Below, one piece after another: positions 1 to 9,763 of a DNA stretch of 10,490 bases (its first letter is position 1; each line of letters begins with the position of its first letter). Below the pieces are notes generated by a model. That model was not told the origin of the DNA and searched no databases. It saw only the letters and a program-made list of their open reading frames with translations. The stretch is from NCBI GenBank assembly GCA_021813595.1, contig JAKAKF010000183.1, positions 1-10,490 of the forward strand, given 5' to 3'. This stretch comes from a bacterium (GTDB lineage Bacteria; SZUA-79; Acidulodesulfobacterales; Acidulodesulfobacteraceae). Made by a program: the position numbers and the translations under genes.

Positions 1-2557
1 TATTTAAGTTATTTAAATGTTTTAAATTTTGCGAAGCTGAACCAGGGCCTTTTATTTCCTGTCCTCTTGAATTAATTTTATTTATAGCTGCGGTAATATT
101 TCCGTTATTGTCGGCAAATTTAAGAAATCTGTCGAGCGAACCTTTGTTGACCGCCATTCTGTCTATGCCTTCAACGGTTTGTTTTGCATTCCAACCCCTG
201 AAATTTGCATATGCCGTCAATTCGTTATCGGTTACGGAGACGCCGTCTTTTTTAAGAACCTGCATGTCATGTTCGATAGAATTTACGTCTTTTCTGGATT
301 TTAAAAAGCTGTCGTTAGCGGTACTAAACGCGCTATAACTATTTTTTAACGCGGAAGAAGCACCGCCCCATTGCTCTGCTTTTAAACCTTTCGTATGCGA
401 CAGTTCGGTAGATAAATTTTTAGCAAGATCATCGTTGAATGCTTTCTCGCGTATATTGCTCAACGAAGAACTTGATACCTGTTTAGCGGAAACTCCCAAA
501 TCTGCGGCTACCGCAAAAGGCATTCTATTTCCCATTAATTTCCCGACTCCGCGCAAAGGTTTAATATTAAATTTTAAACCTTCTTCCGTCATCCATTCGT
601 GCATAGCTTCCTGCTTGCTAATACCCATTTCTTTTGCGGTTTGCGCAATAGAGTTTGCAATTTTCCTTGCTGCCGTACCCTGCAAAGTATTATATTGACT
701 TCCCTTATTGCCGGAACTCACTCCGTTTTCAGCCATTAACATGCTTGTGGCTCCGGAAATAACGTTTTTAGCCGCAACGGCTTCATCCGATTTTGCGTTC
801 GTAAGTTTCTCTCCCATAACGGAATCCATGCTATGAGTAGCAATGCCGTTTATTCCAGTATTGCCTCCGCTTGCGGCATCTACTATCCCGCTTGCATTTT
901 GAGCAGCTGAAGCCCCCGTTTTTTCATCCGTATAACTATAGCCGCCCCCGAATAAACTCTGCTTAGTTAAATTTCCGAAAAGACCGTAATGTCCGGCAAG
1001 AGGCGTTCCGGCAGTGTCTCTTCTCGACGATATCATCTGATTTGAATTCCAATTATCCATATTTACAGCGTCCTGCTTTATGGCGCCGGTAGCCATAGTT
1101 CTTGAAGCGCCCGATACCCCGCTTCCTAAAGAAGAATCCAGACTTCCGGCAAACATAGCAAGCCCGTAACTCGAACCAGTCGCAAAATAGTAGGTTATTA
1201 AAGGCAGCGAGCTCATTAGCATTCCGCTCCAGCCGAACATAGACGATAAATAGTTATTATGCATAATTCCCATAGAAGCCAAAGAATAGCCGTAACCGGA
1301 AACCTGATTTACCCCTTCCAGTTGCATTATTACTTCCTGCATATAATTTATTACGGTGGCAAAAGGCGCCCATAAAACCATCCACAGGAGAAGCTGCGAA
1401 TACATCTTTGCATAACTGTGCCCGAAAGGAAACATTAAAAACATAAGAAGAAACACCCCTCCTACGCTTACCAAACCCTGCAAAACCCCGTACATCGACG
1501 GCAAGAATTGCGCTACGGTTAAACCTATCATGGCAAATGTGCTTTTCTGCTGCTGTTCGGCAATGGAAGTTCCGTAAGCGAGATTGTTTACGTTGGCTCC
1601 CGCCGCCTGAGCGTTTGCCGCTACGGCTTCGGAAACCGTATTAACGGCAAGCGTCTGCATTAACTGATTGCTTGCGCTCTGCGCTATATTAAGGATATCC
1701 GCGTTAACGAGTCCAAACTTCTGGTCGTATTGGGCTGCGGTAAGCCCCGAAGCCGCGGCTAAAGCAGGTTCTAAGCTTCCGTTAACGTAATTCTCCATAT
1801 CGTTCGTTATATCTGAATACGCCTGAGAGCATGTTATAGTGCTTTGCGTTACAGGATTCTGGTTTTCGTCGTAATAAGTGGTCAAAAGATTTGCTCCGGC
1901 TCCGGTTGCGTAAGTTCCGTAATACTGCCACAAACCTACCGAAGTAAGCCCTGAATAGTTGGGAGCAGTATTGTCGGTCGCATCTCCGGCAAGCTCTATC
2001 TGCTGGTCCGAAAGATATCCCCTTAATATACCGGGCTCGACGCAGTTACCGAAAAACTGGTTATAATTGCTTAAAAGAATAGGGTCGTTAATAGAAGCGG
2101 AATAAGCTGCGCTCGGCATAGTCAGTGAAAGTCCGAGTCCGGAAGAAGTATAAGAGAGCGTATTGGGGAGAGAAAAAGCGTGTCCTATTACGTCGGCAAG
2201 GGTATTGCCTAACTGCGAGGCAAGACTGACGGGCACGGCTACTCCTATGGGAACTCTATTTACTATTCCTCCGTTAGGAACATTAGGATTTACATGATCT
2301 ATTATAGAAACGCTGACGTTAGGCACTATAAAAACCATATATACGAGAGCTATCGTTACGAACGCGGAAGGTATCCTGATATGAGCGTCCGCCATTCTTT
2401 TTGAAAAAGTCTGTATAAACGCCATTGCGAAAGCAAGCAATGCCCCGATTTTAGCAGCCATGGCAAACTGCGGAGAATATACCAAAGAAGAAACGGCCGA
2501 TAAAAGATACCATTCCAGGTAACCTGAACCGTAAGAATAAATAGGAAAAAGACTCAT
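1..2557 (-). CDS. traG: TraG, F-type conjugation mating-pair stabilisation protein (C-terminus off the left edge)
   Basis: The frame is open from an ATG at 2557 to the window edge, about 852 codons with no stop. The start is well supported by AAGGAGG just upstream, and ATGA overlaps the stop of the preceding gene. I read a short N-terminal segment, hydrophobic helices at about 36-54 and 64-84, a long polar, Asn/Ser/Thr-rich and presumably periplasmic stretch (about 90-340, with two cysteines near 172 and 243), then hydrophobic segments at about 341-378, 388-406 and 445-470. After that comes a Ser/Ala/Gly-rich hydrophilic tail with no membrane segments. This is the layout of the TraG_N family. 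F TraG is an inner-membrane protein of about 940 residues; its N-terminal part is needed for pilus assembly and its C-terminal part for mating-pair stabilisation and entry exclusion. Identification rests on topology, length and the traU/trbC context. Confidence 0.85.
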   Translation of the reverse strand, partial: MSLFPIYSYGSGYLEWYLLSAVSSLVYSPQFAMAAKIGALLAFAMAFIQTFSKRMADAHIRIPSAFVTIALVYMVFIVPNVSVSIIDHVNPNVPNGGIVNRVPIGVAVPVSLASQLGNTLADVIGHAFSLPNTLSYTSSGLGLSLTMPSAAYSASINDPILLSNYNQFFGNCVEPGILRGYLSDQQIELAGDATDNTAPNYSGLTSVGLWQYYGTYATGAGANLLTTYYDENQNPVTQSTITCSQAYSDITNDMENYVNGSLEPALAAASGLTAAQYDQKFGLVNADILNIAQSASNQLMQTLAVNTVSEAVAANAQAAGANVNNLAYGTSIAEQQQKSTFAMIGLTVAQFLPSMYGVLQGLVSVGGVFLLMFLMFPFGHSYAKMYSQLLLWMVLWAPFATVINYMQEVIMQLEGVNQVSGYGYSLASMGIMHNNYLSSMFGWSGMLMSSLPLITYYFATGSSYGLAMFAGSLDSSLGSGVSGASRTMATGAIKQDAVNMDNWNSNQMISSRRDTAGTPLAGHYGLFGNLTKQSLFGGGYSYTDEKTGASAAQNASGIVDAASGGNTGINGIATHSMDSVMGEKLTNAKSDEAVAAKNVISGATSMLMAENGVSSGNKGSQYNTLQGTAARKIANSIAQTAKEMGISKQEAMHEWMTEEGLKFNIKPLRGVGKLMGNRMPFAVAADLGVSAKQVSSSSLSNIREKAFNDDLAKNLSTELSHTKGLKAEQWGGASSALKNSYSAFSTANDSFLKSRKDVNSIEHDMQVLKKDGVSVTDNELTAYANFRGWNAKQTVEGIDRMAVNKGSLDRFLKFADNNGNITAAINKINSRGQEIKGPGSASQNLKHLNNLN

Positions 2558-3039
2558 AATCCCTCCTTAGAGGAAATTGATTTAATAAATTCAAATATTC
2601 TCTTAGAAACGATTTTTTTTAGAAGAATGTTGTAAACTATAAAAAAAACTATTACGAAAATAAATCCGAACAGAGTAACGTATTGCTGGACATAGCGGCC
2701 GAAGATTAAAGAACTGTCAACTCCCATGTTTTCAATTAATAGCAGTAAATCAAAAATGAAAAATATACCGAGAAGTTTACCGGCTAACCATCTTGATTTT
2801 GTATCCGTATTTTTCGGGTCGAAAAACATATAGGCAAGCGTCGCCGAAATAAAAACCATTGCAGCGTTAAAGAAATAAAAAGTCCTGAAAACTTTGAGCG
2901 ACATTAATTCAGGTTTATATAAAGAAAATCCCGAAGGAATCAAAAATCCGCTAATTACGGTAAATACGACAAGGAAAAAGAGAAAGGGTTTGATTCCGGT
3001 CGCTACTTTGGATTTAAAAAAATTAGCGCCTAATTTCAA
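2554..3039 (-). CDS. four-helix inner-membrane protein of unknown function, coupled to traG
   Basis: This 161-residue protein has hydrophobic segments at about 17-38, 53-72, 87-103 and 120-141 and basic residues after the last one (KKIVSKR), so a four-pass inner-membrane protein is likely. I recognise no family. AGGAG (3052-3048) lies 8 nt before a TTG at 3039, which I take as the start. Another TTG two codons upstream (3045) is only 2 nt from the Shine-Dalgarno. The 5' end overlaps the OmpA-family gene by 17 nt, and the TGA stop overlaps the traG ATG as ATGA, so all three are probably translated together. The position suggests a transfer-apparatus accessory or assembly factor for TraG, but that is inferred from position only. 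Confidence 0.75.
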   Translation of the reverse strand: MKLGANFFKSKVATGIKPFLFFLVVFTVISGFLIPSGFSLYKPELMSLKVFRTFYFFNAAMVFISATLAYMFFDPKNTDTKSRWLAGKLLGIFFIFDLLLLIENMGVDSSLIFGRYVQQYVTLFGFIFVIVFFIVYNILLKKIVSKRIFEFIKSISSKEGL

Positions 3040-3592
3040 TTTCAACTCTCCTGTTGATTTTGTTTATATCCGATATATAACAACATTTTCCGTATCCTTT
3101 GACTTTTGCTTTGACGTTTAAGAATTTTTTCGCCGATTCCGCTCTCTTAAGCGCAAGCCAATCATTATATTTTTTAGTTCCGAAATGGTCGGTATAACCG
3201 ATAATAGTTATATTTTTCTTATTTTTTAGCAAAGGTTCGATTTTGCTTAACCGATATTTCATCGCCGGAGTTAGATTATAACGGCTAAACGCAAAACCGG
3301 ATACCGTATAAGGAATCTCTTTAGCGGGCTTTTTGGAATGTTTTAGGCTTTTATATACATTATTCAGAGCTAACTGCGAAAATATCTTATGCGTCAATTT
3401 CGAGATATGGTAATTGAAATGCTTATAAGGCTTTAAAGGCGTAATTCGTTGCGATTTCGTCAAGGTATAAGTCAGATTTGCGACGTAATATTTATCATAA
3501 TGAACATTTCGCTGCCTTGTGTAGGCAAAAGCCGTCGAACTCAAAAATAAAAAAACGATAGATGAAAATAAAATAATTTTCCGCATGAACAT
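3023..3592 (-). CDS. OmpA-family peptidoglycan-binding envelope protein
   Basis: This 189-residue protein has a clear signal peptide (basic MFMRK, hydrophobic core, SSTAFA before the likely cleavage at about 23). The C-terminal ~90 residues form an OmpA/Pal/MotB-like domain: the IGYTDHFGTKKYN motif (about 131-143), the ALKRAESAKKFL helix (147-158) and a terminal NRRVEIEIR strand (180-188). D135 and R150 are at the positions that bind diaminopimelate in OmpA domains. The middle (24-100) is basic and unfamiliar, and I see no lipobox or beta-barrel. AGGAG lies 6 nt before the ATG. It is the first gene of the OmpA-4TM-TraG overlap group, directly behind a promoter/operator box. It may anchor the transfer channel to peptidoglycan; that role is inferred from context. 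Confidence 0.88.
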   Translation of the reverse strand: MFMRKIILFSSIVFLFLSSTAFAYTRQRNVHYDKYYVANLTYTLTKSQRITPLKPYKHFNYHISKLTHKIFSQLALNNVYKSLKHSKKPAKEIPYTVSGFAFSRYNLTPAMKYRLSKIEPLLKNKKNITIIGYTDHFGTKKYNDWLALKRAESAKKFLNVKAKVKGYGKCCYISDINKINRRVEIEIRR

Positions 3593-3609
3593 AAAATGCT
3601 CCTATATAA

Positions 3610-3652
3610 ATTATATAACTTTAAGTTTACAAAAATATATAAAAAAAGTCAA
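3610..3652 (-). promoter_or_regulatory. promoter with palindromic operator upstream of the OmpA-4TM-TraG unit
   Basis: On the minus strand TTGACT (3652-3647) is followed after 17 bp by TAAACT (3629-3624). The perfect palindrome AACTT-T-AAGTT (3627-3617) overlaps that hexamer. TATAAT (3615-3610) lies just downstream and is an alternative -10 without a good -35. The core 3613-3632 recurs at 8658-8677 with one mismatch, at the palindrome centre. An operator over the -10/start region would suit a repressor. If TATAAT is the true -10, the palindrome sits in the spacer as an activator site would. Confidence 0.6.
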
Positions 3653-3677: not shown

Positions 3678-4466
3678 TTAATAAACAGAACGAATAGGTC
3701 CGCTCATTTGCCATTTTCCAAAAGTGTAGTTAAAGGACAGAGAAATATAAGTCGGATTACCGTCGCAATCATCGTAAAAACTTTCTGGATACGCCAAAAA
3801 ACCATCAGACGATACGACGTCTTTGTAACCTTTGCATAACCCCTTTGGAATTGTATAATGTTTTCCGCCTAAAAAATTCAGTTCATACGCTCGGACAGGA
3901 AACATACTTACAACCGTCCATAATGGAAAACCGTTTTCCTCTTGACCTGCTGTATAGTCAGTTATGTTAATCATATGTCCAAGGCTATTGATATGAACAT
4001 TTATTTTTTTATCTTTAAGCAACGCATTTATCACGGGACGTTCGCCGAGCCTGCAGGCAATAAAAAGAGCCGTCTGATAATGCCGCCCTTGAGCGTTTAT
4101 ATTATTATAAACATTTTGATAATTTTTTAGTATCTTAGAAACAACTTGGGCAAGAAAACGAACCCTCTTTATTTCGGCATTTATTGGTAAAAAATGGTGA
4201 TTTAAGTTTGTATTATTCGAAACACCTTTCCTTATATTTCCGCGATAATCTCTGATTAAAACCCTTAAATCTGCGACAGTGAAGGAAACATGTTTATCGA
4301 TTAACTTATTAATAATTTTAATATCTGAAAAACTAATTATTTTTCTATGCAAAATGGCACTCATTTCTGGATTATTGCTTTTTATATTTCCCGATGTCGC
4401 CGCACAACCAGACATTATAAGCGGAATAATCGATAAGATAAAAATACTTAAAATAATTTTTTTCAT
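3678..4466 (-). CDS. lipoprotein with an ankyrin-like repeat, function unknown
   Basis: With the ATG at 4466 this is a 262-residue protein starting MKKIILSIFILS. The lipobox IMSG-C21 marks it for lipidation, and Ala at +2 favours the outer membrane if Lol sorting applies. Residues about 122-158 read like one ankyrin repeat: N-x-NAQGRHYQTALFIACRLG, then a helix PVINALL and a terminal VHIN, matching the family's TALHxAxxxG...V..LL...N pattern. The remainder (160-262) is aromatic-rich with cysteines at about 211 and 234 and resembles nothing I know. A TTG at 4478 would add four residues; I prefer the ATG because MKK is a typical lipoprotein start, although no Shine-Dalgarno is visible. It begins 39 nt after the nuclease-like gene, with no promoter seen between them. 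Confidence 0.75.
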   Translation of the reverse strand: MKKIILSIFILSIIPLIMSGCAATSGNIKSNNPEMSAILHRKIISFSDIKIINKLIDKHVSFTVADLRVLIRDYRGNIRKGVSNNTNLNHHFLPINAEIKRVRFLAQVVSKILKNYQNVYNNINAQGRHYQTALFIACRLGERPVINALLKDKKINVHINSLGHMINITDYTAGQEENGFPLWTVVSMFPVRAYELNFLGGKHYTIPKGLCKGYKDVVSSDGFLAYPESFYDDCDGNPTYISLSFNYTFGKWQMSGPIRSVY

Positions 4467-4505
4467 ATTAACAAACAAGTTTTTTTCATTAAAAGAATTA
4501 AATAA

Positions 4506-5012
4506 TCAATAAATATTCGTTTCAATTGAAAGTTTTTTATTTTTATACACACGATAATAACAAATTTCATTATCGTCCAATATTCGTTTTTCTTCTTCTG
4601 TAAGAGGTTCTGTATATATAAAATCTACGATAAAAAGAAAAAACTTATAATCTTGAAAATCACCGTTGTTGCAAAAGTCTTTACTTGCTTTTACGGAAAT
4701 AAATTGATCTATAGCCGTTCCCCACCCCCAATTTGCATTTTTATGATTCCTTTTTATTTCAAATAAAATTTTGTTATTTTTATCTATAAAATCAAGTTTA
4801 TTTTTCCTTCCAAAAGAATTAAAACCTTTTTTATCTGGTTCTAATTCTACTTTACAATATTGATAATATAAATTTTTAAAAAAAGGTTGCAACACCCAAT
4901 CTTCAATTCTGAATTGTTTTTTGACTTTATTCTTGGATTGTTTTTTGTCTTCAAAAAAATTTTCTTTATAACTCGCAAATTCAGAATATCTATCAAAACA
5001 GCCCTTTATCAT
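4506..5012 (-). CDS. PD-(D/E)XK nuclease-like protein, possibly the C-terminal part of a longer gene
   Basis: The 168-residue reading frame carries a PD-(D/E)XK-type signature: D74 in KLDFID, then E85-x-K87 on the strand KILFEIK, followed by a helix with Q103 in AIDQF. That spacing (D-x10-E-x-K) fits the core of restriction-endonuclease-like folds, which cleave or bind DNA with a metal ion. An Arg/Lys-rich N-terminus and a short C-terminal beta segment surround it. No methyltransferase or other restriction subunit is in the window. There is no Shine-Dalgarno before ATG 5012, and the sequence immediately upstream (5009-5133) looks coding in other frames, so the true protein may start at 5133. 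This stretch is visibly more AT-rich than traU and traG, consistent with separate acquisition. The nuclease assignment comes from the motif only. Confidence 0.6.
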   Translation of the reverse strand: MIKGCFDRYSEFASYKENFFEDKKQSKNKVKKQFRIEDWVLQPFFKNLYYQYCKVELEPDKKGFNSFGRKNKLDFIDKNNKILFEIKRNHKNANWGWGTAIDQFISVKASKDFCNNGDFQDYKFFLFIVDFIYTEPLTEEEKRILDDNEICYYRVYKNKKLSIETNIY

Positions 5013-5185: not shown

Positions 5186-5214
5186 ATTATATATCCAGGT
5201 TAAAATAAAATCAA
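5186..5214 (-). promoter_or_regulatory. likely sigma-70 promoter for the nuclease-like gene
   Basis: On the minus strand TTGATT (5214-5209) is followed by a 17-bp spacer and a consensus TATAAT (5191-5186). Initiation would be near 5180, about 45 nt before the ATG at 5133. The -35 overlaps the stop codon of the GGDEF gene, so it lies exactly where a new transcription unit would begin. Called from consensus match and spacing only. Confidence 0.45.
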
Positions 5215-5945
5215 ATCTCGTTCAACACCCCCGTAAGAGAATCCGTTATCTCTACCATTCTTTCTTTTCCCCTTGCGATAATCCTGTTCCTGCCGCTTTC
5301 TTTAGCGGCATACAAAAGCTCGTCCACGTGTTTTACGATATCTTCGACATTTTCATCTAATTTTTCGCCTGCCTCGATAACCCCCATGCTTACCGTAATA
5401 TAACCGACATCTTTAATTTTTTCTTTGGCAATAGCCGTTTTAATCCGAAAAGCAACCATTACCGCATCCGTTAAAACAGAATTTATGAGCAAAACCATAA
5501 ATTCTTCTCCGCCGAATCTCGCCGCGTAGTCTTCCGTCCTTACCGTTCTTGCAAGAATATCCGCAAATGCCTTTAAAACTTCGTCCCCTTTGTCGTGGCC
5601 GTAATCGTCGTTTATTTTTTTGAAATGGTCTATATCGAGCATAATTACCGAAAACGGAATATTTCGTTTAACGCTTTCTTCGTGGATTTTAGCAAGTAGT
5701 TTATCAAGATACCTGCGGTTGTATAGCCGGGTCAAATGGTCTTTTACGTTGGAATTTTTTAATTTCATAATTTCGGTCTCTTTTTGCGAACGGGAATGGA
5801 ATTCGTAAAAATATACGAACAAAGCAAGGATAAACAAGAAAAAAATAATTATATTTACGGCGGATATACCGAGAAAAGCGGTATTGACGGAAATAAATAA
5901 AATAATTAACAAAACTGCCTGAACCAACGATATCTTTGAAATCAA
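5211..5945 (-). CDS. membrane-bound GGDEF diguanylate cyclase
   Basis: This 244-residue protein should make cyclic di-GMP from two GTP. Two hydrophobic segments (about 7-27 and 30-48) anchor it in the inner membrane with almost no periplasmic sensor. A short helix leads to a full GGDEF domain (about 67-225): entry motif DHLTRLYNRR (69-78), metal-binding MLDIDHFKKIND (102-113), the active-site variant GGEEF (145-149), and an RxxD inhibitory site RTED (136-139) exactly five residues before it, so product inhibition is likely. The start is TTG 5945, which shares two bases with the upstream HD-GYP stop; GGAGG lies 10 nt before it. The last residues, TDSLTGVLN (234-242), again resemble a GGDEF entry motif and then stop, hinting that a second domain was lost. 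Confidence 0.93.
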   Translation of the reverse strand: MISKISLVQAVLLIILFISVNTAFLGISAVNIIIFFLFILALFVYFYEFHSRSQKETEIMKLKNSNVKDHLTRLYNRRYLDKLLAKIHEESVKRNIPFSVIMLDIDHFKKINDDYGHDKGDEVLKAFADILARTVRTEDYAARFGGEEFMVLLINSVLTDAVMVAFRIKTAIAKEKIKDVGYITVSMGVIEAGEKLDENVEDIVKHVDELLYAAKESGRNRIIARGKERMVEITDSLTGVLNEI

Positions 5946-6532
5946 GCGGCAATTACCTCCAGAAAAGCCGAAACGACGTTTTCGTCAAAATGCGTTCCTG
6001 CGCCATCTTTAATAATTTTTATGGCTTCCTCTTTAGAAAAAGCTTTCTTATAAGGTCTTTCGTTTACAAGAGCGTCGAAAACGTCCACTACGGCTACTAT
6101 TTTTGCCGGAAGGCCTATTTCGTCGCCTTTAAGTCCGAAAGGATAGCCCGTTCCGTCAACTTTTTCATGATGGTCCCTGACTATGAGGCTTATCGGCTCA
6201 AATACGCTTTTTAGTAATTCGTAACCGGCAAGAGGATGCCTTTTAACCTCTAAAAATTCTTCTGCATCGAGCTTACCGGGCTTATTCAAGATATTATCGG
6301 GAACGGCTAATTTTCCTATATCGTGTAAAAGAGTGCCGTATTTTATGTTTTCGATAAAAGATTCGCTCAAATTTAACTTCCTTGCGGTTTCTACGGCATA
6401 TTTAATCATATTTTCGGAGTGTTTTTCAGTGTATGGATTTTTTAATCCAAGCGTTTTGGCTATAACGGTAAGCATTTCCAGTTTAGCTCTGCGTTCCAAA
6501 ATTATAGCTGAATAATTATAAAAGCCGTCCAT
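5942..6532 (-). CDS. stand-alone HD-GYP cyclic-di-GMP phosphodiesterase
   Basis: This 196-residue protein consists almost entirely of an HD-GYP domain, which hydrolyses cyclic di-GMP to pGpG or GMP at a two- or three-metal centre. Key residues are visible: H38 in EKHSE, HDIGK (70-74), H99 in KRHPLAGYELL, the DHHEKVDGTGYP motif (120-131) including an intact GYP, D150 in VAVVDVFDAL, and a C-terminal GTHFDE. No receiver, PAS or membrane domain precedes it, so activity may be controlled by expression or by a partner. AAAAAAAGG upstream of ATG 6532 gives a fair ribosome site. It overlaps the following GGDEF gene, so opposing c-di-GMP enzymes are co-translated. It is not part of canonical F-type transfer operons. 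Confidence 0.93.
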   Translation of the reverse strand: MDGFYNYSAIILERRAKLEMLTVIAKTLGLKNPYTEKHSENMIKYAVETARKLNLSESFIENIKYGTLLHDIGKLAVPDNILNKPGKLDAEEFLEVKRHPLAGYELLKSVFEPISLIVRDHHEKVDGTGYPFGLKGDEIGLPAKIVAVVDVFDALVNERPYKKAFSKEEAIKIIKDGAGTHFDENVVSAFLEVIAA

Positions 6533-6643: not shown

Positions 6644-6745
6644 ATGCTGATAATCAGTTTTGCTATTTGTTTTAAGGCATTTATCGTTGTGAAGGCAAAA
6701 TTAATCATTGCTTTTCCTGGCAAAGAAAACAAAAATAACGAATAA
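6644..6745 (+). CDS. 33-residue hydrophobic small protein, possibly a membrane peptide or type I toxin-like
   Basis: ATG 6644 opens a 33-codon frame ending in TAA at 6743-6745. The product starts MLIISFAICFKAFIVV and ends in a polar PGKENKNNE tail. About 24 residues are hydrophobic, broken by lysines at 11, 17 and 19, so one short membrane-inserted or amphipathic helix is plausible. A perfect Shine-Dalgarno precedes it and a strong rho-independent terminator follows 18 nt after the stop, giving a compact self-contained gene between trbC and hd-gyp on the opposite strand. I know no family for it. Type I toxins and small membrane regulators have this size and build, but I do not see an antisense RNA gene with confidence. 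Confidence 0.55.
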   Translation: MLIISFAICFKAFIVVKAKLIIAFPGKENKNNE

Positions 6746-6763
6746 CAACGATTAATTGCTATG

Positions 6764-6802
6764 CTATGCTCCGCATATTAATTACGGGGCATAGTTTTTT
6801 TT
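6764..6802 (+). terminator. rho-independent terminator after the 33-residue ORF
   Basis: CTATGCTCCG (6764-6773) pairs with CGGGGCATAG (6785-6794) over ten base pairs including one T-G pair, around an 11-nt loop, followed directly by T8 (6795-6802). The U-tract orientation makes it a plus-strand terminator. The last two Ts are part of trbC's stop codon on the other strand, so the genes converge tightly. Confidence 0.8.
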
Positions 6803-7607
6803 AGCCTCTTAACATTTTTATTAAACTCCTTATATACCTCGAATGCGTCTTTTCTTCGATTTTCTTAAGCCCATATTCAATGCTTGCGTCGCCGTAAACC
6901 ACATATGCTTTAGCTTTATTATTATTCATAAAAGTTTCAGGATTATAATGCCTTACGTAAATAAGCGCCGGAACTTCCCTTATATGAAATTTATCGATAA
7001 TTAAAGGATCTATATCTACGTGCATATCGTAATAGCCCTTTTTACCCTTAAATTTAAGCAATTTTTTTATCCAATTGACTGTGGGCATAATATATGTAGC
7101 CGACCCTATTACGCCCCTTAATACCATCGTTATCGCTCCGTTAAGTCTTGCGTCTGTATATACGTAGTTTCTTAACGTAGAAAAAGGAATCGACGAAGAA
7201 ATAGCCAGAAATACTTTGCCCCTGCCTAAAAATATATTCCGTTCTTCTTTGATCATCCGCGAGGCGTTCATATTTTTTGGAATATAATTCGCAAATCTTT
7301 TATTTTTTAAGAAAGCATTCTCGTCCTGCATAACCATATCGCTTACGGTTTTAGATTCTATTTCGGAATAAAGTTTTTCGACGGTTTGCAGTTTTATATG
7401 TTTATTTACTTTAATATGAAGTTTCTTCGCTTTATTTACGATAGCCCTTATTTGCGAATCGTTAAGTGAATAGTTAGTTACGGGCGGATGAACGGATACA
7501 GCATTTTTTCTGTTTTCTATCCGTTTTATATAGGATTCTCCGGTAAGAGCTAAAAAAGAAAACAACAAAAATACCGACAATACTCCGATTTTGTATAACT
7601 TACGCAT
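6801..7607 (-). CDS. trbC: TrbC, F-type pilin assembly protein
   Basis: I start this at ATG 7607, which has GGGAGG in good position and lies 19 nt after traU; the frame stays open upstream to 7670, but that would overlap traU. The 268-residue product has a signal peptide (MRKLYKIGVLSVFLLFSFLA), so it is periplasmic. Residues about 131-255 match the TrbC_Ftype domain: a strand KVFLAISSSIP, SxxTLRNYV, the MVLRGVIGSA segment (161-170), DIDPLIIDKFHIREVPALIYV (198-218) with the VPA turn that in thioredoxin-like folds is the cis-proline loop, and a GDAS turn near 239-242. There is no CXXC pair, as expected for this family. The ~130-residue N-terminal extension is Lys/Asn-rich and unfamiliar. In F, TrbC is required for pilus assembly and follows traU as here. 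Confidence 0.88.
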   Translation of the reverse strand: MRKLYKIGVLSVFLLFSFLALTGESYIKRIENRKNAVSVHPPVTNYSLNDSQIRAIVNKAKKLHIKVNKHIKLQTVEKLYSEIESKTVSDMVMQDENAFLKNKRFANYIPKNMNASRMIKEERNIFLGRGKVFLAISSSIPFSTLRNYVYTDARLNGAITMVLRGVIGSATYIMPTVNWIKKLLKFKGKKGYYDMHVDIDPLIIDKFHIREVPALIYVRHYNPETFMNNNKAKAYVVYGDASIEYGLKKIEEKTHSRYIRSLIKMLRG

Positions 7608-7626
7608 TACCGTCCTCCCTTGAAGA

Positions 7627-8634
7627 TTAAAACGCACAGCAATCTTTTTCGTTAAATACCGTATAAACAAAGTTATCGCCTATATACGGCGGATTTTTAA
7701 ACATAGACCATAATACCGAATCCTGCCCTATCGGCTGAACCACAGGCTCTGGAACGGGCATAGACAAATCTAACCTTACCGCCGATTTTATCCAAATAGG
7801 GTCTGGAAAATCCTGACACCATAAGGTATATGTGAGCGGTCCTGTAGTTCCTTCCTGTATAAAATCCTGATGCATCATAAAAATAGTTTTACCGGCTATT
7901 GCGGCAGAATCCTGGACATAGTCTTTAGAACCCCCGGTATCTCCGTCTAATGGAAATACGCTTCCCCAAGAACCCATACACCAGAATAAAGGGTCTAAAG
8001 GCTGATAAATTTGAGCGGAAACCGAATCGGCGATACAGGACAACTGGGCTGCAGGATTTGCGAAAAGAACCGTTTCCGGAGAGGCAAAAGCGGCTAATAT
8101 ATCCGACTGCCAGACGGGATTAGGCTCGGAAATATACGCTATCGCAGGAGAACCACCTATATTGCTTGACGCTTGAAGACATGATAAGTCGGTAAACAAA
8201 CCCATCATCGCCCATATCGGAAAAGTATAATAATGCGCCTGGAAAAATGCCATTTTATCCATTTTTTTCGCTCTCGAACCGCCTAAAAATACTCCGGCAG
8301 GATTACTCATGCCTATACCGAACGCCTGAAAGCAAAACGGTGTGGAAACTACTTCGGCAAGCTTATCCGGCGCCCAGAACGACAAAGTCGTGCCTATTCT
8401 TGGAACGGGCATAGTGCAGACGCATACGGGAGGCAGATAATCCTGCTCGTCCGGAATACCGGGAACTACTGGAACGCCCCCTACCCTAATAGGGAAAACG
8501 CCCATCCAGTCGATATTAGTTATTGGATTTAAGAAATAGCCGGTATCACAAACGGCATAGGATTTTAGGGGCGATAAAAATAAAAACAGGCATATTGATG
8601 ATAAGAATAATACTGTTTTTGTTATTTGTCTCAT
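7627..8634 (-). CDS. traU: TraU, F-type conjugative DNA transfer/pilus assembly protein
   Basis: This 335-residue protein is close to the length of F TraU (about 330). A signal peptide ending near LKSYA (22-27) exports it to the periplasm. The mature part starts CDTGYFLNPITNIDW and has ten cysteines (29, 71, 73, 101, 152, 200, 219, 273, 332, 333), which presumably form disulfides. CVCTMPVPRIG (71-81), the following FWAPDKLAEVVSTPFC and the WCMGSWGSVFPLDG block (218-231) fit TraU. In F it is needed for efficient DNA transfer and, to a lesser degree, pilus assembly. ATG 8634 follows AAGAGG. It is the first gene after a promoter/operator box and precedes trbC, but traW, which precedes it in F, is absent. 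Confidence 0.92.
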   Translation of the reverse strand: MRQITKTVLFLSSICLFLFLSPLKSYAVCDTGYFLNPITNIDWMGVFPIRVGGVPVVPGIPDEQDYLPPVCVCTMPVPRIGTTLSFWAPDKLAEVVSTPFCFQAFGIGMSNPAGVFLGGSRAKKMDKMAFFQAHYYTFPIWAMMGLFTDLSCLQASSNIGGSPAIAYISEPNPVWQSDILAAFASPETVLFANPAAQLSCIADSVSAQIYQPLDPLFWCMGSWGSVFPLDGDTGGSKDYVQDSAAIAGKTIFMMHQDFIQEGTTGPLTYTLWCQDFPDPIWIKSAVRLDLSMPVPEPVVQPIGQDSVLWSMFKNPPYIGDNFVYTVFNEKDCCAF

Positions 8635-8774
8635 AAAAACCTCTTAATTATAAAATCATATAACTTAAAGTTTACAATATAATTTCAAAAAAGGCAAGAA
8701 CATTTAAAATTACTGATAAAATATATAATTTAGCGGAGATTAATTCAGATTATACGAAAACTTAAAAAAAATGA
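8635..8774. other. intergenic region between the unknown membrane-protein gene and traU
   Basis: Apart from the promoter/operator box at 8655-8697 this 140-bp AT-rich gap shows nothing I can name. A T-run follows the stop of the upstream gene on the minus strand (8763-8770), but I find no convincing stem before it, so a terminator is not called. Confidence 0.4.
8655..8697 (-). promoter_or_regulatory. promoter with palindromic operator upstream of traU-trbC
   Basis: On the minus strand TTGCCT (8697-8692), a 17-bp spacer and TAAACT (8674-8669) are followed by the palindrome AACTT-A-AAGTT (8672-8662, overlapping the hexamer) and TATGAT (8660-8655). Spacing is the same as in the copy at 3610-3652, and the core 8658-8677 matches 3613-3632 at 19 of 20 positions. 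The box ends 23 nt before the traU ATG, against 20 nt in the other copy. Confidence 0.6.
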
Positions 8775-9566
8775 CTAACTGTTTATCTTATCACTTTTAA
8801 AATCTCTTTCTAATAACTTAAGCAATGAATTTTCACCGTCGATTATTTTTGTCTTTAATTTTTGTTGGTTAAATTTTAGTTTATTTGAATAATCATACAA
8901 CGACTTTATTAACGCCAATATAACTCTGGCATCTTCTTTATCGTGAGTTTTATTAAACAATAATTGTGCATTTTCAAACCTTGATAGCATAGCATTGTTC
9001 ATCGAAAAAGAATCTACAAACCCTTTCATTAATATGTAGCATTCTATTATAAGACTTCTTAAATTATAGTCTTTGATTCCGCCAATTAATTTAGCATTTT
9101 GTTCATAAATAATAAAATAATTCTGTGAAATAGGGTAATAATAATTAAAAACAAAATGCTGCAATTCAGATATAAGTTTTGCAATGTTCTTATTAGTTTC
9201 TATGGATGCTATCTGTAATAATGGATTTTCCATAATATCTTTATTTAATAATGATTCAGCTTCGTTAATATCATTTTCAAAATCAGTTGACGGATTATCT
9301 AATTTATCAATAATTTCACCTACTGATATGCTTTGTTTATCGTTGCCTTTCGTATAATGCAAATCCCAAATTGTCTTAATTTCTTGATATATACCTCTCT
9401 TTAAATTATCGATTATATTTTTCTCTTCTAATTTTTTGATTTCTAAATTATTTTGATGAGCTATTTTAACTTGTCTAATTGAAAACCAACCAGCCACAAG
9501 TCCGCCTATTAATGCCGCCACAATACTTGCAAACAAAACAATAACATGATCGGATAATTGTGCCAT
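8775..9566 (-). CDS. single-pass membrane protein with a helical cytoplasmic domain, function unknown
   Basis: From ATG 9566 this is a 263-residue protein. The N-terminal MAQLSDHV is followed directly by one hydrophobic helix (about 8-29, with GGLVAGW), then a charged, probably coiled-coil stretch (36-60: repeated Leu/Ile with Lys/Glu). A long Asn/Lys/Leu-rich, apparently all-helical domain without recognisable catalytic motifs follows, ending in a basic tail. The frame is open to a TTG at 9620, which would add 18 residues; neither start has a good Shine-Dalgarno. The TTG would leave 19 nt to the upstream truncated gene, whereas the ATG puts the start immediately before the membrane helix. 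Base composition resembles the nuclease-like gene more than traU, consistent with cargo DNA. I cannot assign a function. Confidence 0.7.
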   Translation of the reverse strand: MAQLSDHVIVLFASIVAALIGGLVAGWFSIRQVKIAHQNNLEIKKLEEKNIIDNLKRGIYQEIKTIWDLHYTKGNDKQSISVGEIIDKLDNPSTDFENDINEAESLLNKDIMENPLLQIASIETNKNIAKLISELQHFVFNYYYPISQNYFIIYEQNAKLIGGIKDYNLRSLIIECYILMKGFVDSFSMNNAMLSRFENAQLLFNKTHDKEDARVILALIKSLYDYSNKLKFNQQKLKTKIIDGENSLLKLLERDFKSDKINS

Positions 9567-9639
9567 GATTGAATGATGCGTAGTATTTGCGATAACCTTA
9601 ATTACAATAGGATTTTTCAATGATTCTTACCGTAAAGAT

Positions 9640-9734: not shown

Positions 9735-9763
9735 TTGACAAAGCAAAACCGCCCTGATATACT
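9735..9763 (+). promoter_or_regulatory. strong extended -10 promoter for the IS transposase
   Basis: TTGACA (9735-9740), a 17-bp spacer and TATACT (9758-9763), with TG one base before the -10 (9755-9756), form a near-consensus sigma-70 promoter. The transposase ATG is 30 nt downstream, with GGAGG at 9780-9784. Confidence 0.75.

Follow-up and report, generated by a model that had tools for sequence, protein, structure and literature searches.

Repeated promoter units are familiar from IncP-1 plasmids and SXT-type elements, and the principle is not new. SetCD of the SXT/R391 elements has 11 promoters and AcaCD of the IncA/C plasmids has 19 (PMC4344509; PMC4542580). As described in the relevant passages of these two papers, one element-encoded regulator uses repeated sites before several operons, transfer operons included. 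The sites overlap a poor -35 hexamer or lie just upstream of it, and binding there activates the promoter and compensates for the lack of a good hexamer. In the F-type class, the regulons described in these passages (SXT, IncA/C) control their transfer operons through activators. KorA of the IncP-1 plasmid RK2 represents a different arrangement. Its short palindrome TTTAGCTAAA overlaps the -10 hexamer of the korA promoter, and the KorA promoters named in the source passages are not F-type transfer promoters.

The window analysed here is a stretch of 10,490 nt with a GC content of 37.0%. It carries a partial F-type conjugation cluster, nearly all of it on the minus strand (Table 1). For Ca. Acidulodesulfobacterium, the cited part of PMC6776010 gives GC contents of 37.35 and 35.52%, with which the value of the window agrees. 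Among relatives that carry a name, those nearest to the HD protein (P0124, 72%) and to the IS1595 transposase (P0244, 85%) are both labelled 'Deltaproteobacteria bacterium', closer relatives being nameless. These hints are too weak to assign a host. The TrbC protein scores 55.5 bits against TIGR02742, under the cut-off of 66.45, and its gene has an ATG with a Shine-Dalgarno-like GGGAGG at 7607. Two transfer units in the window, one beginning with an OmpA-domain gene and the other with traU, are each preceded by a copy of the same promoter-like module, here called copy A and copy B.

Table 1. Genes and promoter-like features of the window, with positions counted from its first letter.
Feature	Position	Strand	Remarks
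TraG, N-terminal part	2..2557	-	PF07916, E 6.4e-62; runs off the window
163-aa small protein, multi-pass membrane by sequence	2554..3045	-	copy A unit; no family above cut-off
OmpA-domain protein	3023..3592	-	PF00691, E 2.4e-11; first gene behind copy A
Promoter module, copy A	3608..3652	-	37/45 ungapped vs copy B; upstream of OmpA-like/small membrane protein/TraG unit
20-nt core, copy A	3613..3632	-	TTGTAAACTTAAAGTTATAT
11-bp palindrome, copy A	3617..3627	-	AACTT-A-AAGTT; possible operator, function inferred only
-10-like hexamer, copy A	3624..3629	-	TAAACT
-35-like hexamer, copy A	3647..3652	-	TTGACT; 17 nt before TAAACT; pair 9/12 of sigma-70 consensus
Ankyrin-like predicted lipoprotein (by eye)	3678..4478	-	Ank_3 20.1 bits, below cut-off
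168-aa protein of no known family	4506..5012	-	no Pfam, NCBIfam or PADLOC match
GGDEF protein	5211..5945	-	
HD-domain protein	5942..6532	-	relatives named HD-GYP
F-type TrbC	6801..7670	-	PF09673, E 9.8e-20; second gene behind copy B
TraU	7627..8634	-	PF06834, E 5.1e-83; first gene behind copy B
Promoter module, copy B	8653..8697	-	37/45 ungapped vs copy A; upstream of TraU-TrbC unit
20-nt core, copy B	8658..8677	-	TTGTAAACTTTAAGTTATAT
11-bp palindrome, copy B	8662..8672	-	AACTT-T-AAGTT; possible operator, function inferred only
-10-like hexamer, copy B	8669..8674	-	TAAACT
-35-like hexamer, copy B	8692..8697	-	TTGCCT; 17 nt before TAAACT; pair 8/12 of consensus, hand count
Membrane protein upstream of traU promoter	8775..9620	-	LapA_dom 19.8 bits, below cut-off
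IS1595 transposase	right end of window	+	

The first-pass annotation had described two boxes of 20 nt on the minus strand, and both lie exactly where it placed them, with 19 of 20 bases identical and the sole difference at the centre of AACTT-W-AAGTT. The boxes end 20 nt before the ATG of the OmpA-like gene (3592) and 23 nt before that of traU (8634). TTGACT or TTGCCT stands exactly 17 nt 5' of TAAACT, and TATAAT or TATGAT follows downstream, again as described. The annotation also held that the flanks of the boxes do not match, which is true only further out. The match extends without gaps to 45 nt (TTGACTTTTTTTATATATTTTTGTAAACTTAAAGTTATATAATTT and TTGCCTTTTTTGAAATTATATTGTAAACTTTAAGTTATATGATTT, identical at 37 positions), and outside these 45 nt identity drops to chance level, with 13/40 upstream and 5/15 downstream. 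Written as a pattern, the unit is TTGNCT-N17-TAAACTTWAAGTTATATRAT, and no longer pair appears among the direct repeats listed for the window. Identity within it amounts to 5/6 in the -35-like hexamer, 12/17 in the 17-nt spacer, 6/6 in TAAACT and 14/16 in the next 16 nt; five of the eight mismatches fall in the spacer. The edges of the match are sharp. Since the similarity spans the region contacted by RNA polymerase and then stops, they coincide with those of a core promoter. The placement before the two transfer genes is equal: the copies share a strand, and each occupies a short gap (85 and 140 nt) directly 5' of a transfer-unit gene.

The 20-mer match alone is only mildly unusual. Some same-strand pair of 20-mers with at least 19 identities was present in 13 of 400 third-order Markov copies of the window; an initial, smaller simulation had given such a pair in 0/40 windows and a 36/45 pair in 0/20. 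The extended 45-nt match exceeds chance, because 37/45 was reached neither in the 400 Markov copies (best 34/45) nor among 6000 pairs of simulated AT-rich upstream regions of 110 nt (maximum 33). None of these 6000 pairs attained 19/20 either (maximum 18). In the window itself, 11 upstream regions form 55 pairs, and only the OmpA/TraU pair scores 19/20 and 37/45. The regions taken for the ankyrin and LapA-like genes were offset from the start codon by 3 and 1 nt, which does not affect this outcome. The next best is ankyrin/HD with 18/20 and 27/45, a pair of the kind that arises by chance, as simulated windows average 0.6 pairs at 18/20 or better. With up to three mismatches allowed, the 16-mer TTGTAAACTTWAAGTT finds only the two boxes in the window, both as exact matches; matches this loose occur two or more times in 56 of 200 shuffles.

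The hexamer pair TTGNCT-17-TAAACT is predicted to be a fair sigma-70 promoter, and its spacing falls in both copies within the 16-18 nt of that class. Copy B is missing from the listing of the sigma-70 scan because its count of 8/12 is under the scan threshold of 9/12. The resemblance to sigma-70 promoters is weak evidence by itself, since such sites are no commoner in the window than in shuffles (35 against a mean of 33.5). We infer from the sequence that both copies are active promoters. Transcription is predicted to start about 7 nt after the -10 hexamer, near 3617 and 8662, and the predicted leaders of about 25 and 28 nt would carry Shine-Dalgarno-like AGGAG and AGAGG. Of the promoters listed for the window, the one closest to consensus belongs to the IS1595 transposase gene (TTGACA-17-TATACT, 11/12; 9735-9763, plus strand) and is unlike the shared transfer promoter. 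An RNA element was considered as well and rejected. There is no Rfam match up to an E value of 1, and the two putative leader pieces (46 and 53 nt, reaching into the genes) fold unlike each other, with z values of -0.41 and -2.12, the latter a mild signal equalled by 7 of 200 shuffles. A palindrome with a one-base centre cannot form a closed RNA hairpin.

We put at roughly 60% the probability that these are two copies of one sigma-70-type core-promoter unit of about 45 bp, which co-express the OmpA-like/membrane protein/TraG unit and the TraU/TrbC unit. The unit would begin with the -35 hexamer, take in the 17-nt spacer and the identical -10 hexamer, and end about 16 nt further on. One preformed promoter unit would have been used twice, with its copies presumably kept by selection, and the two transfer units of the interrupted F-type cluster would be expressed at matching strength and time. 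Each copy follows a gene without a transfer-family match (the ankyrin lipoprotein and the LapA-like protein), and from its position behind such cargo genes could therefore restart transcription of the transfer units. With TTGNCT and TAAACT 17 nt apart and suitably spaced from the genes, the module resembles any ordinary sigma-70 promoter. It differs in that an unrelated pair of such promoters would be unlikely to share 37 of 45 positions, including 14 of the 16 past the -10 hexamer.

A simpler version of this reading is a serious possibility, though less likely than not. Both units may share a strong, AT-rich, constitutive sigma-70 promoter whose palindrome is accidental and which has no dedicated regulator. 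Such a promoter fits the similarity of all 45 nt, which reaches beyond the palindrome. It fits also the commonness of such palindromes in AT-rich sequence, where arms of at least five occur in 26% of random 45-mers of the same composition, and two matches to the palindrome with up to one mismatch are reached in 58 of 200 shuffles. No regulator family was recognised among the window proteins scanned (ten and eight in two scans, which excluded very short frames). It explains less well why the 16 nt past the -10 hexamer, whose individual bases sigma does not read, are better conserved than the spacer, and why the core mismatch sits at the symmetry centre. Inversion of the site alone would give the same change.

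These last two features, the strong conservation past the -10 hexamer and the mismatch exactly at the palindrome centre, speak in favour of an operator. The palindrome overlaps TAAACT by its final four bases and extends to the predicted transcription start, and a repressor site over the -10 hexamer is plausible from this layout. The annotation had gone further and proposed a regulator coordinating the transfer genes. Of that proposal, the shared promoter-like module holds, with its common strand, matching distance, above-chance similarity and core-promoter edges; the palindrome is a putative operator, against a background of 26%. If a repressor exists, an element-encoded dimer would bind AACTT-W-AAGTT over part of the -10 hexamer and the predicted start. 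The bound dimer would block RNA polymerase and keep both units off, in the way proposed for KorA on IncP-1 plasmids. A wider form of this proposal, in which each transfer operon has AACTT-W-AAGTT over its -10 hexamer and start and the repressor thereby governs a KorA-like negative F-type regulon, is tentative and to our minds doubtful. A third copy of the palindrome is absent from the 10.5-kb window even at one mismatch, and hence none stands before the HD, GGDEF, ankyrin or LapA-like genes. The candidate repressor was not found in print by its site, the text matches to AACTTTAAGTT/AACTTAAAGTT being five titles on human ABCG2 and one on a mosquito-borne virus.

The locus can be set beside the described systems on this basis. 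By analogy, the IncP-1 KorA promoters share its geometry and the SetCD/AcaCD regulons its logic. As in KorA promoters, a palindrome lies over the -10 hexamer, AACTTWAAGTT sharing four bases with TAAACT in both copies as a putative operator. The KorA operator has a sequence unlike AACTT-W-AAGTT and is absent from the window at up to one mismatch, and no KorA-like family appears among the window proteins scanned. The SetCD and AcaCD sites are repeated before several operons of an element; the 10.5 kb of the window show two units with the module and no third palindrome within one mismatch. The sites of those activators are found at a -35 region without a recognisable hexamer, whereas here TTGNCT is present and the core overlaps the -10 hexamer. 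The module thus resembles a shared transfer promoter in its mode of action, and its assignment to either described circuit is not supported by the window.

A recent duplication, or the origin of both units from one source, could also have left two similar promoters without selection, the second a mere copy of the first. The similarity does form one ungapped block, as a duplication would. Its edges are nevertheless those of the -35 hexamer and of a point about 16 nt past the -10 hexamer, with unmatched flanks, and the mismatches concentrate in the spacer, whereas the edges of a neutral copy should fall anywhere and its changes be spread evenly. Eight mismatches are few, which leaves this argument suggestive and not decisive, and we regard an unselected copy as unlikely. 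Somewhat in the same range, and improbable in our estimate, is that TTGTAAACTTWAAGTT is the site of an activator or an alternative sigma factor, with the downstream TATRAT as the true -10 hexamer. TATAAT or TATGAT does follow both cores, but 17 nt before TATRAT there is no conserved -35 hexamer (the hexamer at that place is not the same in the two copies), TTGNCT-17-TAAACT being conserved instead, and the sites known for SetCD and AcaCD lie over or next to the -35 region (PMC4344509; PMC4542580, in the passages cited above). The chance similarity of AT-rich upstream DNA, which the simulated 20-mer pairs and the loose 16-mer matches in shuffles would allow, is rejected by the simulations for the 45-nt match, if not for the 20-mer alone, and with both copies preceding transfer-unit genes its probability is negligible.

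The module was also sought in other loci and genomes. The control set comprised 37 traU-containing loci, each 10 kb or longer (20 named genome records, 2 plasmids and 15 phylum-genome regions), with frames called mechanically (at least 80 codons, gaps of at least 50 nt); two of them, L001 and L051, come from one contig, and several sphingomonad loci with the same matches are probably near-identical. These loci gave one upstream pair at 18/20, whose members are the two readings of a single gap between divergent genes on a Campylobacter plasmid; the comparison is limited, as the loci are mostly GC-richer than the window and only L037 and L038 equal or exceed it in AT content. In the latter two, traU, traG and trbC lie head to tail, apparently in one operon. 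The exact AAACTTWAAGTT is missing from all 21 loci whose traU is only distantly related (30-39% identity at the protein level), and conservation of the unit across elements is thus not supported there. Two of 73 loci contain AACTTNAAGTT, and a similar pattern had served to retrieve one of them (L066). With up to one mismatch, the 20-mer is found in none of 297 genomes of the phylum of G003. With up to two, its matches number 9, spread over 8 of the 49 genomes from the phylum of G005, against 8 backward-control matches, which is background. A generic genomic motif is rejected on these counts. The gene traU itself is present in 15/297, 35/395 and 11/50 genomes of the phyla of G003, G001 and G005, with best scores of 241, 274 and 228 bits, and 15 regions around these genes entered the control set. 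Nine TraU proteins of the protein database (P0002-P0010) are 55-60% identical to that of the window; among the DNA loci searched, no TraU exceeds 46%. Viral contigs contained no exact match to the box and no traU or traG relative (98 pattern-matching stretches, none related), and none of the known plasmids nearly matches the window.

Several neighbouring genes deserve mention in their own right. In several lineages, the F-type clusters have genes for c-di-GMP turnover in the neighbourhood of trbC or traU. Examples include the HD and GGDEF genes after TrbC in the window (5211-6532), TrbC-GGDEF-HD upstream of TraU in L063 (3053-5505), TraU-EAL-TrbC together with HD and a diguanylate cyclase in the two Campylobacterota plasmids L037 and L038 (18773-30740), and, in L001/L051 from a MAG labelled Nitrospirae, an HD gene some 4.6 kb ahead of TraU. 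Searches by tblastn with the HD and GGDEF proteins of the window detected such genes in 4 of the 36 control loci that are distinct and 10 kb or longer, a count without a base rate. HD genes are frequent anyway, three of five genomes having 10-15 HD matches. Just behind the trbC stop codon, positions 6644-6799 of the plus strand hold a hydrophobic frame of 33 residues with a strong Shine-Dalgarno sequence, GGAGGTGAT, followed by an apparent stem-loop and T run (seen by eye, missing from the listing of the window scan). The 168-aa protein contains a D...FEIKR stretch, which we take to be reminiscent of PD-(D/E)XK nucleases. The ankyrin-like lipoprotein, encoded between transfer genes, reaches 19.5 bits against T4SS_AnkG, for which the cut-off is 500, and is a possible candidate for a surface or entry-exclusion role. 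The membrane protein upstream of the traU promoter has a weak PADLOC match to AbiEi (15.2 bits, E 0.0035).

If the module is a shared regulated promoter, it would provide a first handle on how conjugation is switched on in a lineage that is known from metagenome-type sequence. Its short motif could then be used to find the rest of the transfer regulon, together with its regulator.
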